DNA of 64,000 bases from Methylophaga sp. (GTDB lineage: Bacteria > Pseudomonadota > Gammaproteobacteria > Nitrosococcales > Methylophagaceae), in NCBI GenBank assembly GCA_002733715.2, contig NVWQ02000053.1, positions 124,001 through 188,000 of the forward strand, given 5' to 3'. A model generated the notes under the pieces. The model had not been told where the DNA came from. It saw only the letters and a program-made list of their open reading frames with translations, and ran no database searches. The translations under genes were made by a program, and so were the position numbers. Position 1 is the stretch's first letter, and each line of letters begins with the position of its first letter. Of the stretch, positions 6,944-57,940 are shown one piece after another.

Positions 6944-9869
6944 CACTACGGATACGATAAAAATAAAACGGCTTGTTTTGGTTGATTCGGCAGGATTTTG
7001 TTTTATCGAAATTCCGATAGATCGGCATGCCATTTTGTTAGGGAAAGGCAATATTGGAAAATCGAGTTTACTTAATTCACTACGATTATTTTTATTGCCA
7101 GAAAACAACTTTAATAAAAGTCGAATTAAATTTGCTTTTAGAGAACCTAAAAAGAATGACTATTACAGTAATAACGACAGTTATAGGCATTATTTCCCTA
7201 GTACACGAAGCTTTTTAATTTTAGAAAGTGAAAATGAGGCAGGAACGCATTGCCAGATCTTATATCGAACTAATAATTTAGGCTATGGCCGTATTTTCAC
7301 GCCTTTTTCTTTCGATAAAATCCGCCATTTTTTTTGGAATGGAACAGGCGGCAATGACGATGGTATTGGTGTTGCAGTAGCAGAATTGTCTATTGCTCAT
7401 ATCAAAGAAAGCTTGAAAAAATTATCTTCTAAAACAGAAATAATCAGTGATGCAAACAAATTGCGCCATACGCTTTATGCCGAACCAAATGAACTGCTTG
7501 ATAGCGATAGTACACGCTATTGTTTAGTACCGTTACATAAGGTAAATGATGATAATGTCGAGTCATTACGGGCATTGATCTTGTTATTATTTGAGATGGA
7601 TTCAAGTGCGGAGTCTATGGCTCAGGCATTGGCGAATATCATTGAATCGGGCAAAAAAACCACAGATGATATTTTAGACTTTAATATTGAGGCTTTTTTA
7701 GCAAAACATGATGATTTAAAAAAACAGCAGAGCCATATTGTTGAATTACGCAATTTACAGCCTGAATTTAACCGCTTATCAAAAGATCATGACAATTACG
7801 TTAAATTGAGTGAAGCCGACAAAAGGTATATCACGCTTACTAAGTCATTATTAATTCAAGAAAAACTATTTAAACAAGTAGCATTAGATAGTCAGAATAA
7901 ATTTAATCAAGAAGAGCAATCGAGGATAAAGCATAAAGGTGAATTACAGCAGATTAGTGATGAATTGATTGGCGAGCGAAGGGCATTAAGAGATAGTAAG
8001 ATGCGAAGAGGAGCCCAAGATGAAATACTCGCGAAGGTAAAAGTTTTGCGGGCTCAGTATCATGATCCTAATTACAGTTTGGATGAAATAAAAGCTGATT
8101 TACAACAAGATGTTGAGCAGATAACGGAAGAATTATCTGCTTTGCAAAATGCAGAAGATAATCTGAAGTTACAAAATACACTTGAAGAAAAAATAAAAAA
8201 AGTTAAGGCAGAAATATTACAAATTGGACAATCCTTAGAAAATAAAGAATTTCAACTGTTTGAACAGCTATCTGAGCAAGCTGGCATTATATTGTCGACG
8301 ATAAATAAAAATCTAATGATGGCCAATCCACATAGAAAAATAACAGAGCAAGAACGGTTGGGAATCGATAACTTTACTGCTTTATTTGAAGATGATGGCG
8401 AAGCAATTAAGTGGTTTGATCAGGCACTGCCTAAACACACTCTTGATGTAGGTGAAGATCTACAAAAGAAACTAGCAAATGCTCAAGCCAATCTTAATGA
8501 TTATGAAAAAACATATAAAAATATCAGTGTTGAAAAGGATGCCATTAGCCAGAAAAAAGAAATAGAAAAGCTTAAAAAGAAACGTGCAGCATCGGAAAAC
8601 GATATAAGCAGTCTTGATAACTATCCTAATCTTACCATTATTAAGCAAGAAGAAAACAATAGCGCTCAATACCAAATAACGATTGATAAGTTGGGTGTTA
8701 AGGAACAAAAATCCCAAATCTTGTTTGAACAATCAAAAACGAAGTTGGTGCAATTAAAAAATAGCCGAGATGAAAAAAATAGAGCGGTAGGTGATTTAAA
8801 TAGACTTAAACAGACATTAAATAGATTGGAAATGCATTACCCTAGATTAAAAGCATTCACTATGGATGAATTTAAGCCTGAGCAGGCCGTGACGGTAAGC
8901 GAAGAAGAGGTTGAACAGCTTGAAAATGACTTACGTGAGTTTGATCGTTTAAGGAATCATATTAAATCAGAATTGAAAGACCTGCATCGCCGTGACTTTA
9001 TCAATGAAGCAGAACTTCTTTCTCAATCACCCAATGATCAGGTAATTGAAAGAGGACTTAATCAATTACATGATACGTTTACCGATTTAGATAATATTGA
9101 AAAAGCGTATAACGATTATTTACATAGCCATAATGAATCGGTTGCCAGTTATGCCAAAGTATTACGTGACAATTATGAAATTATTCACCGTTTTGAAGCA
9201 AGTATTAATCGAGAGCTAAGTTCGGTTACGATTAATGACTTAACGGAGATTAAAGCTACAATTGCAGTGCACCCTAAATTTAGACACTTGGTCGATGAGA
9301 TAAATAAGCTGGATGAATATAGTGATGACATGTTATCTGACCAGTTTTATGAACGACTAAAAGTGTTTGTCGAGACCTTTTTTAAAGAGGGTGATGCTAA
9401 ATTGACCATGGATAAAATCATCACCAATCTAGAATATAAAACTAAAAAACAACAAGATGACACCATGCAAGATAAATCTCAGTCGATGTCTACAACAGTA
9501 TTGATTAATGTAGAGTTGGTTAAGATTTTGCTGAAACGCGTTATCCCAACAGGGATCCGGCTAGAAATGCCACTTATCTTTGATGAGGCGGCAGATATTA
9601 ATATTGACCAGTTTGACTGGATTTTGCCTAATTTAACCCAAGCAGGGTTTAGCCTGTTTGCAGCAGCAACACATAGCGTTAGTACTGAACTAATACATAA
9701 AATAGGCGTTTATTTTTCTATTGATGAAATGACGACCAGTCAACCTTACGATAACAAACGGACATTGGTATATTGGAATGGTGGCGAGGGCTTTGAACCA
9801 TTAGATTCTGATAATTTGATGGATCTGGTTTTGGCTGATCAAACGGATTGGGTTAATCAAGATGAGTAA
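6936..9869 (+). CDS. SMC-like ATPase, JetC/MksB-like
   Basis: About 977 residues from ATG 6936, preferred over TTG 6924 because GGAGAG at 6926-6931 gives a proper ribosome site. The N-terminal Walker A is unusual, GKGNIGKSS at about 36-44, where SMC proteins normally have GPNGSGKS. About 250 to 900 is largely Lys/Glu/Gln-rich coiled coil. The C-terminal head has LEMPLIFDEAADINIDQFDW as Walker B, preceded by KSQSMSTTVLINVELV where an ABC signature should be (clearly degenerate), then FAAATHS. Size and layout fit the short SMC proteins of Wadjet/Mks systems rather than MukB (about 1480) or canonical SMC. It overlaps both neighbours by 8 bases. Expected role: ATP-driven DNA loop extrusion with the next two gene products. 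Confidence 0.8.
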   Translation: MSSTTDTIKIKRLVLVDSAGFCFIEIPIDRHAILLGKGNIGKSSLLNSLRLFLLPENNFNKSRIKFAFREPKKNDYYSNNDSYRHYFPSTRSFLILESENEAGTHCQILYRTNNLGYGRIFTPFSFDKIRHFFWNGTGGNDDGIGVAVAELSIAHIKESLKKLSSKTEIISDANKLRHTLYAEPNELLDSDSTRYCLVPLHKVNDDNVESLRALILLLFEMDSSAESMAQALANIIESGKKTTDDILDFNIEAFLAKHDDLKKQQSHIVELRNLQPEFNRLSKDHDNYVKLSEADKRYITLTKSLLIQEKLFKQVALDSQNKFNQEEQSRIKHKGELQQISDELIGERRALRDSKMRRGAQDEILAKVKVLRAQYHDPNYSLDEIKADLQQDVEQITEELSALQNAEDNLKLQNTLEEKIKKVKAEILQIGQSLENKEFQLFEQLSEQAGIILSTINKNLMMANPHRKITEQERLGIDNFTALFEDDGEAIKWFDQALPKHTLDVGEDLQKKLANAQANLNDYEKTYKNISVEKDAISQKKEIEKLKKKRAASENDISSLDNYPNLTIIKQEENNSAQYQITIDKLGVKEQKSQILFEQSKTKLVQLKNSRDEKNRAVGDLNRLKQTLNRLEMHYPRLKAFTMDEFKPEQAVTVSEEEVEQLENDLREFDRLRNHIKSELKDLHRRDFINEAELLSQSPNDQVIERGLNQLHDTFTDLDNIEKAYNDYLHSHNESVASYAKVLRDNYEIIHRFEASINRELSSVTINDLTEIKATIAVHPKFRHLVDEINKLDEYSDDMLSDQFYERLKVFVETFFKEGDAKLTMDKIITNLEYKTKKQQDDTMQDKSQSMSTTVLINVELVKILLKRVIPTGIRLEMPLIFDEAADINIDQFDWILPNLTQAGFSLFAAATHSVSTELIHKIGVYFSIDEMTTSQPYDNKRTLVYWNGGEGFEPLDSDNLMDLVLADQTDWVNQDE

Positions 9870-52170: not shown

Positions 52171-53040
52171 ATGACACGTCCATTTCTAGGGTTTGGCTTA
52201 GGCTTGCGAACAGATCACTATGAGCATGTTATTGATAACAAGCCGCAAGTAGATTGGTTTGAAATAATTTCTGAGAACTATATGGTTCCCGGGGGTAAAC
52301 CTTTAGCCCATTTAGATAAGATCCGCCAAGATTATCCGATGGTGATGCACGGTGTTTCGATGTCGATTGGTAGCACCGACCCATTGAATTCTGACTATCT
52401 TAAAAAATTAAAAATATTAATTGATCGCGTTGAGCCGCAATGGATTTCAGATCATCTATGTTGGACAGCAGTTAACCATATCAACAGTCATGACCTTTTA
52501 CCTTTGCCTTATAATGAAGCAACGATCAACCACATTGTTGATCGAATAAAGCAGGTGCAAGATACTATTGGCAGGCAAATGCTGATAGAAAATTTATCGA
52601 GTTACGTCACTTACAATAATTCTGAAATGCCGGAATGGGAATTTGTAAACGAAATAGCCAAGCGGGCAGATTGTTATATCTTGCTTGATATCAACAATAT
52701 TTTTGTCAGTGCTAACAACCATCACTTTGAGCCGCAACATTATGTAAATGGCATTGATAGCGATCGGGTGATGCAATTTCATCTTGCGGGTCATAGCTAT
52801 AACGGTGAAATGATTATTGATACACATGATCACGATGTATGTGATCCGGTATGGGAATTATATGAATACGCCTTAGGTCGGTTCGGTGCAGTGAGCACAA
52901 TGATTGAACGCGATGATAATATTCCACCGTTTGAAGAGTTACGTCAAGAACTGGCTATAGCAGAGAAAATAGCCGCCAAAGTATTAACGCCTCAGCAATT
53001 ACAAATTAGCAATAAACAAGATTTGCAAGGAGCAGCCTAA
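52171..53040 (+). CDS. bufB: BufB-like DUF692 (MNIO) peptide-modifying iron enzyme
   Basis: A 289-residue TIM-barrel protein: FLGFGLGLRTDHYEHV, VDWFEIISENYM, HGVSMSIGSTDPLN, ISDHLCWTA, LLPLPYNEATI, MLIENLSSYVTY, LLDINNIFVSANN, QFHLAGHSY, IDTHDHDV and TMIERDDNIPP. These His/Asp/Glu-rich motifs bind two or three irons in the multinuclear non-heme iron oxidase family. Members convert Cys residues of small precursors to thiooxazole or related groups. With two Cys-rich precursors directly upstream and the DUF2063 partner overlapping downstream, the role is clear. Confidence 0.9.
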   Translation: MTRPFLGFGLGLRTDHYEHVIDNKPQVDWFEIISENYMVPGGKPLAHLDKIRQDYPMVMHGVSMSIGSTDPLNSDYLKKLKILIDRVEPQWISDHLCWTAVNHINSHDLLPLPYNEATINHIVDRIKQVQDTIGRQMLIENLSSYVTYNNSEMPEWEFVNEIAKRADCYILLDINNIFVSANNHHFEPQHYVNGIDSDRVMQFHLAGHSYNGEMIIDTHDHDVCDPVWELYEYALGRFGAVSTMIERDDNIPPFEELRQELAIAEKIAAKVLTPQQLQISNKQDLQGAA

Positions 53041-53819
53041 TGCCCGGCTTACAGGAGCTGCAATACCGATTTATGGATTATCTGCTCGATGAATCCACAG
53101 CAATGGTTGATGACATTGAATCAACGCCAATGTTGTCAGCAAAAGGGCGACTTGATATCTATGCCGCTGCATACAGGCTTAGGTTAAAAGAAGCTATTAC
53201 TACTGATTACGATAAATTGGCTTCTTATTTAGGCGACGATCGCTTTGATCAATTGATGGAGTCGTATATTGATAAATATCCATCACACACCACTAATTTA
53301 CGCTATTTCAGTGTTAACTTGCCTGAACTAATACGGGATGATACAGACTATGAACATATAGCTGAAGTTTATGAATTAGCCTGCATTGACCGTGCTTTTG
53401 CAGATAGTTTTGATGCCAAAGATCTACAATTTTCAACAATGGATGATCTAGCCGCACTGCCTGAACAAGCATGGGGCACATTGACGTTTAAATTTCAAAA
53501 GTCAGTGCAAATCTTATGGTTAGAGCACAATAGCTTTCCTATTTGGAAAGCCTTAGCTGAAGAAGAAACGCCACCTAAAGCAGAGAAGTCACACGCTACG
53601 GCGTGGATATTATGGCGTCGTTCAGATTTAATCAGTCATTATAGAATGCTAGCGCCAGAAGAAATCGCAATATTAGCACTAGCTATGCAAGGTGAAACAT
53701 TCGCGGTGATGTGCGAGAAATTATTGGATTTTTTCAGTGAAGAAGAAACACCAATGAAAGCCATTAGCTTTTTACAATCTTGGATATCAGAAGAAATGTT
53801 AGCGGGTTTTGAGTATTAA
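53040..53819 (+). CDS. bufC: BufC-like DUF2063 partner protein
   Basis: A 259-residue protein with the DUF2063 N-terminal domain (LQELQYRFMDYLLDES, then YAAAYRLRLKEAITTDYDKLASYLGDDRFDQLMESYIDKYPSHTTNLRYF) and a second domain with IWRR-type segments (ATAWILWRRSDLISHYRMLA). This family partners with DUF692 enzymes and is thought to bind the precursor leader. One-base overlap with bufB. No DoxX-like bufD gene follows, unlike some bufferin operons. Confidence 0.88.
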   Translation: MPGLQELQYRFMDYLLDESTAMVDDIESTPMLSAKGRLDIYAAAYRLRLKEAITTDYDKLASYLGDDRFDQLMESYIDKYPSHTTNLRYFSVNLPELIRDDTDYEHIAEVYELACIDRAFADSFDAKDLQFSTMDDLAALPEQAWGTLTFKFQKSVQILWLEHNSFPIWKALAEEETPPKAEKSHATAWILWRRSDLISHYRMLAPEEIAILALAMQGETFAVMCEKLLDFFSEEETPMKAISFLQSWISEEMLAGFEY

Positions 53820-53900
53820 TATATCAGAAAATAGAGTCATGTTTTTCTAGCATTGTTGTACTTTGGCATACAAATACCTCATCTTGTTGTTAGATTTTGG

Positions 53901-53926
53901 TGTCCACTTTAACGGGGGATGATCAC
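53901..53926. mobile_element. Possible insertion-sequence end remnant
   Basis: TGTCCACTTTAACGGGGGAT followed by GATCAC resembles terminal inverted repeats of IS3-group elements, which commonly begin TGxxC and carry GGGGG. No transposase or second end lies nearby. It falls where the attC tail of the adjacent cassette should be. From memory of IS ends; a search would decide. Confidence 0.28.
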
Positions 53927-53945
53927 GGTCAAGTGAATTTGATTG

Positions 53946-54581
53946 TTAGGGTGTAATTGCTTCAATGTCTTTACCATAATGAAATTCAAAACGTTTACAG
54001 ACAGATATTTCTATTTGATTTATTGATAGAGAAGCTAGATTTTCTCTAATATCAATTAAACTGTTTTTTGGAAGCTGAACAGTGATAAAGTCATGCCCTT
54101 TTGGAGAAATCCCAATCTGTTTTTTACTGCGTTGTATGAAACCAATATTATCATTTATTTTTTTATTTAAAAAAATAAACATAAGGTTCCAACTATAGGA
54201 TGTTCCATCACTATCAAGGCCTTTTTCAATATACTTTGAGGTTAATATGATTTTTTCAATACTATTCCAAGAATAAGTGTTTTCAAGACTATTTAATGGT
54301 GAGCCTTCAGAGATTCCTTTTGCGTCAGCTTTAAATATGATCGCACCTGACTTATTTTTCATTTTGCCATAATATTTAGGCAAACCAATTAAAACAAAAA
54401 TACCGATAGTGATAAATAACATTCCGAAAACTCGAGGAAGTATTTCATCTGGCATTAATTTTAGAAACCATGATCCAAAACCAATACAAAAAATACTTAT
54501 CAGCAGTCCCAAACCAAGAACATTGGAAAGTTCTCGGTAGATAACTATGCTTTTGTCAAAGAATTTTACTTTAGTTGCCAT
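53946..54581 (-). CDS. Cassette-like membrane protein with a PH-like domain (unknown)
   Basis: A 211-residue protein: two N-terminal hydrophobic segments (LGLGLLISIFCIGFGSWFL and VFGMLFITIGIFVLIGLP), then a beta-rich domain (GAIIFKADAKGISEG, TYSWNSIEKIILTSKYIE, SWNLMFIFLNKK) with the feel of bacterial PH-like proteins. No specific family recognised. The stop overlaps a 3'-end R''-type core (CCCTAAC at 53945-53951 on the minus strand), which is complementary to GTTAGGG at the gene's 5' side, as in integron cassettes. Its attC tail seems truncated. Confidence 0.68.
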   Translation of the reverse strand: MATKVKFFDKSIVIYRELSNVLGLGLLISIFCIGFGSWFLKLMPDEILPRVFGMLFITIGIFVLIGLPKYYGKMKNKSGAIIFKADAKGISEGSPLNSLENTYSWNSIEKIILTSKYIEKGLDSDGTSYSWNLMFIFLNKKINDNIGFIQRSKKQIGISPKGHDFITVQLPKNSLIDIRENLASLSINQIEISVCKRFEFHYGKDIEAITP

Positions 54582-54593
54582 TAATGTCTCAAA

Positions 54594-54681
54594 CCCTAAC
54601 TCTTGAACTCAGTTGACCTGCAATATGACGTGTAGCGAAGCGGCGTATTGCAGGGGCAACTGCAGTGATTTGTTATGAGGC
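54594..54681 (-). mobile_element. attC recombination site (integron cassette 3' end)
   Basis: On the minus strand the site begins GCCTCATAACAAATCACTG and ends GAGTTAGGG. The inner arms, CAGTTGCCCCTGCAATA and TATTGCAGGTCAACTG, are imperfectly complementary with extrahelical bases, as in attC folded single strands. A short loop (CGCCGCTTCGCTACACG) lies between them. The terminal GCCTCATAAC is the exact complement of GTTATGAGGC at the far end of the GNAT gene. Confidence 0.85.
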
Positions 54682-55143
54682 ATTATGCACCATGATTATA
54701 TTTGCCCTTGAGTATACAGGGTGTTGTTCAGTGGAAACAATTTTAAAACCATGCTTTTTGTATAATACTATTGCTGCTTCTAATTTTGTATTTGAGACTA
54801 GATAAACTTTATGTGCTTTAATTTCTTGTGCTTTAGATAAGCAAGCATTAATTAGTTTTTCTCCGTATCCCTTACCTCGGTGCTCGGGAGGTACAGCCAT
54901 CCTGGCTAGCTCATAAACATTGTTGCCCTCATTGAACAGTGCGCAGACACCAATAACTTTATTGTTATCAACCAAGCTAAAAATGTACCCGCCATCATCA
55001 ATTACTTTTTGTGGATTAGCTGCAAGTTTCTTATCTATATCCTCTAATTGGAAATTAGTCGTAATCCATTCTTCATTTAATGCAATGAAGTCATTTAGAT
55101 ATTCACTTTCATTCTCAATTATTTCCAATCTTTTGCCTCATAA
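54600..55143 (-). mobile_element. Integron-type gene cassette carrying a GNAT gene
   Basis: On the minus strand it starts with TTATGAGGC after a G (55144), contains one gene, and ends in an attC whose first bases (GCCTCATAAC) are complementary to the cassette start. A circularised cassette would restore a complete R''/R' pair, the hallmark of real cassettes. The next cassette-like unit (53.9-54.6 kb) starts at the same boundary with TTAGGG. Confidence 0.82.
54673..55128 (-). CDS. GNAT-family N-acetyltransferase (cassette gene)
   Basis: A 151-residue GNAT protein. The acetyl-CoA motif is MAVPPEHRGKGYGEKLINACLSKA (R/Q-x-x-G-x-G/A). ALFNEGNNVYELARM precedes it and VLYKKHGFKIVS closes the fold. 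The frame starts at a TTG at 55128 only about 15 bases inside the cassette end, as is common for cassette genes that rely on upstream translation signals. The target is unknown; the sequence does not identify an antibiotic-modifying enzyme. The stop lies inside the attC. Confidence 0.85.
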   Translation of the reverse strand: MEIIENESEYLNDFIALNEEWITTNFQLEDIDKKLAANPQKVIDDGGYIFSLVDNNKVIGVCALFNEGNNVYELARMAVPPEHRGKGYGEKLINACLSKAQEIKAHKVYLVSNTKLEAAIVLYKKHGFKIVSTEQHPVYSRANIIMVHNAS

Positions 55144-55144
55144 C

Positions 55145-57940
<2,796 letters not shown>

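Follow-up and report, generated by a model that had tools for sequence, protein, structure and literature searches.

Cassettes that carry attC sites away from any integron integrase gene (intI) have been described before, either as CALINs or as single attC sites lacking integrase, and IntegronFinder 2 by default demands at least two attC sites for a CALIN (PMC9024848). Cassettes can also be joined to non-attC DNA at a G-TT, and such attG insertion has been established experimentally (Loot et al. 2024, as cited in PMC11023631); the IS3-mediated inversion of cassette arrays is likewise on record (PMC11023631). As to mobile elements that have attC as their target, two kinds are described in the sources cited here: the IS1111-attC group, characterized by repeated insertion in cassette attCs (Tetu and Holmes 2008; Post and Hall 2009, as cited in PMC11187229), and the group IIC-attC introns (PMC7923331).

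The locus considered here lies in a 64-kb window of a Methylophaga sp. genome of 2.83 Mb in 80 contigs (the window is the whole stretch of DNA analyzed, 64,000 nucleotides, and positions given without a contig or locus name are those of the window). It is situated within a contig of 207 kb (C54), with housekeeping genes on either side, a bufC-like gene (DUF2063, PF09836; 53040-53819, plus strand) being the left neighbor and leuS (55484-57940, plus strand) the right one. The sequence-only reading had recognized a pair of cassette-like units, both on the minus strand, between these genes and had called them a small cluster of attC sites lacking integrase. Both units are present, and comparison of their sequences with those of other genomes firmly identifies each as a genuine integron cassette; there is also no local intI, but only one attC is intact and the host does possess an integrase gene. 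The block resembles CALINs and single attC sites lacking integrase in that its attC-bearing cassettes stand away from any intI, and differs from CALINs in the combination of one intact attC with one half-destroyed attC in a genome that carries intI. Since one intact attC falls below the IntegronFinder 2 default, the block is to be classified as a single-attC fragment, not as a CALIN. In kind, it is a degraded fragment of the already known CALIN/SALIN type in an integron-bearing Methylophaga-like genus, and it very probably represents a piece of an integron cassette array that became separated from its integron and was left isolated in the chromosomal interval between bufC and leuS.

The first cassette is complete (54600-55143, minus strand): it starts with TTATGAGGC after the recombination G at 55144 and ends at G54600 of the attC R' box. 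Its ends are complementary, exactly as had been described for the GNAT unit, with all 10 positions of GTTATGAGGC (minus strand, 55144-55135) complementary to GCCTCATAAC at the 3' end. In both cassettes the 5' end (TTRRRY-type) is complementary to the R'' box of its own attC, in the second one as GTTAGGG/CCCTAAC (7/7), and the stop codons of both open reading frames fall within the R'' boxes. The gene of the first cassette (54673-55128, minus strand, TTG start, 151 aa) encodes a GNAT-family protein (PF00583, 66 bits), a generic N-acetyltransferase with no NCBIfam equivalog above its cut-off. Its homologue with 83% amino acid identity (L058:1548-2003) is located within the intI-adjacent array of the nearest relative, G015, and the gene was found in only two of 57 genomes of the family, namely, in this genome and in G015.

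The attC of this cassette, attC1 (54594-54678, minus strand), is intact by covariance model, fold, and geometry. Its left side consists of R'' TCATAAC, a 5-nt spacer, and ACT-(G)-CAGTTG, i.e., a 3-bp stem, one extrahelical base, and a 6-bp stem; its right side consists of CAACTG-AGT, a 6-nt spacer, and R' GTTAGGG. The imperfect CAGTTG arms noted earlier are real and pair at 9/9 positions in standard attC geometry, and the layout is that of the aadA, cmlA, and aac(6') attCs taken from annotated plasmids. The window contains this exact geometry a single time, against 0.05 occurrences per 64 kb in Markov-1 controls, and the bottom strand folds with -18.4 kcal/mol (z = -4.6), with none of 200 shuffles being as good. 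Because a DNA search with the window attC detected no second copy in the genome, relatives of the site were sought by a covariance model, R1, constructed from 12 other attCs with attC1 left out of the training; the model was built on trimmed arms, since MAFFT misaligned the stems when applied to full-length attCs. R1 recovered attC1 at its exact ends (28.9 bits; E = 1.3e-4 in 173 kb and 0.002 genome-wide) as the one convincing match within the window. The sequence-only reading had proposed a scan of this kind and was to be abandoned if neither an attC-like fold nor other cassettes could be found; the attC1 fold was detected, and other cassettes are present in the genome.

The second cassette (53926-54599, minus strand) has an intact 5' end and a truncated 3' attC. 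Its status as a real cassette, beginning with GTTAGGG and ending with CCCTAAC as had been claimed, follows from the contig L104 of an uncultured Desulfobulbaceae MAG, to which its DNA is 91% identical (L104:4840-5740); the homology starts exactly at G54600 and stops at the attC left arm. The claim holds for the boundaries and not for a complete attC, which was cut by an IS3 element. The homologue in L104 possesses its own complete attC (CCCTAACAATCAAATCCACTTGCCGTAAAAAG ... CTTTTTACGGCAAGTGATTTGGGCGTT) and stands behind a different attC right half. Alignment with L104 delimits the remaining left half of attC2 in the window to 53926-53951 (minus strand), with the order CCCTAAC, AATCA, AAT, T, CACTTG, ACCG (CCCTAACAATCAAATTCACTTGACCG); the right half (L' and R') is missing, R1 gave no match at attC2, and shuffled sequences fold as well as the region does (z = -0.25). 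The occurrence of this cassette in a MAG assigned to another phylum, on one contig, may reflect either recent transfer or mis-binning of that contig.

The gene of the second cassette (53946-54581, minus strand) encodes a membrane protein of 211 aa, with homologues of 86-87% amino acid identity in two MAGs and of 35% identity in another gammaproteobacterium; a plasmid search with this protein gave no match. Two N-terminal membrane helices are predicted, followed by a beta-rich domain. Weak PH-like signs were obtained for the protein, namely, a sub-threshold hit to the STM3941 family (16.3 bits), profile matches to the F3 region of merlin (E = 0.5), and Foldseek matches to Spt16 and PTB domains (best E = 0.026) with a low-confidence model (pLDDT 61). 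A PH-like fold of the beta-rich domain may be guessed from these predictions.

To the left of attC2, an IS3-family remnant (53837-53925, minus strand; left limit at about 53830-53840, i.e., 85-95 bp) comprises TGATCATCCCCCGTTAAAGTGGACACC, which is the left terminal repeat, and the start of orfA, of which 10 codons (MPKYNNARKT) precede a stop. The 24-mer beside attC2 had no match in an exact search of genome contigs, and a mismatch-tolerant search of whole genomes identified it as an IS end. Another copy in the genome matches the remnant with 88% identity over 119 nt. Full-length relatives of the element in L135 and L136 contain orfA (HTH_Tnp_1), orfB (rve), and matching inverted ends, and judged by this orfA/orfB organization, the HTH and rve domains, and the terminal inverted repeats, the element in attC2 is of the IS3 family, with only its left end kept in the window. 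On contig C45, a near-full, frameshifted copy borders at its right end on the complementary half of an attC, CCGTAAAAAGCG...CTTTTTACGTCAAGTGATTTGGGCGTTAGGC; the left halves taken together with this right half imply a 3-bp duplication, CCG. Two other interpretations were discarded. The consideration of GTGTCCACTTTAACGGGGG as an IS21-type end was ruled out since the full copies are IS3, and the stretch leftward from 53925 was rejected as a divergent attC2, as it continues into orfA and is found after several attC left arms that are unrelated.

The association of this IS with attC sites is the part of the analysis worth following. A 24-nt profile of the left arms of intact attCs was used to score the 11 left ends analyzed in the genus. 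It matched 10 of them, in each of which the IS starts 2-3 nt beyond the arm and has the same orientation; the exception is in G009. One further left end, the twelfth, belongs to another genus (G056) and has an attC-like arm by eye. The 10 matched ends lie in attCs of different sequence associated with different genes, and all four left ends of the genome under study (G000) are in attCs. The interrupted attC of L135 has an intact attC beside it, and the two share the same left arm. Left-end sites were recorded at 53837-53925 in the window, L102:1501-1590, L103 (about 1440-1530), L108:8889-8944, L099, L101, L134, L135, and L136. From the positions of these ends, the IS3 lineage of the Methylophaga-like genus probably targets attC, inserting 2-3 nt after the left arm (L''-GAC-nn) in one orientation, and the half attC in the window is then likely to be one product of such an insertion. 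The repeated insertion in cassette attCs is shared with the IS1111-attC group, whose members are IS110/IS1111 DEDD elements, whereas the element described here is of the IS3 family, with orfA/orfB, rve, and terminal repeats, and is inserted just inside the attC left arm. The group IIC-attC introns are comparable as mobile elements targeting attC, and a maturase gene is located near the second cassette in the nearest relative; no such intron is present in the window. Our literature search, in its incomplete coverage, found no equivalent attC-targeting IS3 element. If the preference holds, a third class of attC-targeting mobile elements would stand beside the IS1111-attC elements and the group IIC-attC introns. 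Moreover, each insertion would split an attC, by which cassettes would be immobilized and rearrangements of arrays initiated; chromosomal cassettes could be frozen in this simple way.

The absence of intI had been noted for the window and extends to its whole contig, in which a TIGR02249 search gave no match, but it does not extend to the genome: an intact integron integrase gene is located at C43:420-1364 (445 bits against a 265-bit cut-off), with all tyrosine-recombinase motifs present. This gene lies at a contig end, where the break falls within a repeat and adjoins attC-like sequence. In addition, contig C52 is a cassette array with at least eight attCs, and scattered attCs occur elsewhere in the genome, one of them between pdxH and lolD on C54, the contig that contains the window. 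Given this host integrase, the array, and the scattered sites, the cassettes in the window belong to a normal integron system, from which they were displaced, and are not evidence of an integron without integrase. Within the genus, intI was found in 11 of 29 genomes and attC matches in 22 of the 29. Note that a second, broken integron-integrase gene is recognizable in the genome under study at C10:21393-21813 (L020, about 9394-9814); only its C-terminal half remains, with a frameshift and a TGA. G009 has 28 attC matches on several contigs and no integron integrase above E = 1e-60, and is thus a genome of CALINs.

Orphan cassettes are common, and their history is usually unreadable. In the present case it can be traced, as the GNAT cassette has its counterpart in the working array of a relative, and the membrane-protein cassette is found elsewhere in that relative and in the MAG assigned to another phylum. 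The relative, G015, corresponds to Methylophaga sp. MAG 355-202, with which it shares 6.4 kb of identical sequence, and the N-terminal part of its leuS is 94% identical. The GNAT unit in its array is without the GTTATGAGGC start, and its attC core is different; therefore, it represents another cassette copy. The DNA of the two units is identical as far as the end of GCCTCATAACAAA, beyond which the attC cores differ completely. In this comparison between sister species (L058:1998-2081 with 54594-54678 of the window), R'' and the gene end are conserved, which suggests that the GNAT attC was replaced at the R''/spacer boundary. The membrane-protein gene of G015 is at a different chromosomal site and ends in an IS-truncated attC of the same kind. 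Just upstream of this cassette, G015 carries a group II intron reverse transcriptase/maturase gene (L105:3025-4359, minus strand; TIGR04416, 413 bits), in the position expected for a group IIC-attC intron.

Two readings would deny the displacement of these cassettes. That they are chance palindromes around two ordinary chromosomal genes might be suggested by the single intact attC and by its R'' box TCATAAC, which deviates from the RYYYAAC consensus; this reading is extremely improbable and was refuted by the independent covariance match, the canonical geometry, the GNAT gene shared with a bona fide array, and the homology that starts exactly at the cassette boundary. The assumption that the block belongs to the main integron and is isolated only by a broken assembly could draw on the end of C43 in attC-like sequence near intI and on C52 being an array contig. 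It is nevertheless very unlikely, as the block is embedded in 207 kb of contiguous sequence with housekeeping genes on both sides, and intI lies on another contig with its own flanks.

The IS3-family element that split attC2 is now a remnant abutting bufC, having decayed, probably, after the pair had arrived. How the pair arrived is less certain. It may have been inserted by IntI, cassette by cassette, at a non-attC (attG-type) G-TT site at 55144/55143, with the IS coming later, to which we assign a probability just short of even. The 5' junction AAAATTG-TTATGAGGC indeed represents a G-TT cleavage context with nothing attC-like upstream, as in attG-inserted cassettes, and the genome contains other single cassettes at scattered positions; however, the insertion here is only a candidate, for no empty site was found in the relatives, and an IS remnant now forms the left end of the block, so that the host side of that junction is lost. 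A somewhat smaller, still substantial chance is given to the alternative that the block was once the end of an array and was torn off and relocated through IS-associated deletion or inversion or through homologous recombination between attC-inserted IS3 copies, the left breakpoint being the IS copy in attC2. Homology of the bufC 3' flank with the nearest relative stops about where the remnant that abuts this flank begins, the IS left ends of this genome all lie in attCs, the right end in C45 adjoins the complementary attC half, and the bufC-leuS adjacency was found in none of the relatives compared, which are largely draft assemblies. At the same time, the right junction contains neither an IS nor an attC half, which would require a second type of breakpoint, and the matching partner copy is putative. 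The regions upstream of leuS and downstream of bufC in the relatives are not colinear with the window; the two genes are apart there, and the relatives provide neither an uninterrupted locus for comparison with the right-hand junction nor an empty site by which to decide between attG insertion and IS-associated rearrangement. The array fragment now between bufC and leuS could still be recombined by IntI acting in trans at attC1 and at the G-TT at 55144/55143, so that the first cassette should stay excisable or reinsertable and the second would be locked in place.

An Rfam scan of 53000-56000 gave no relevant match. The approximately 250 nt between the first cassette and the leuS promoter region (55145-55395) are without counterpart upstream of leuS in the relatives and hold a possible reading frame of 20 codons on the minus strand.
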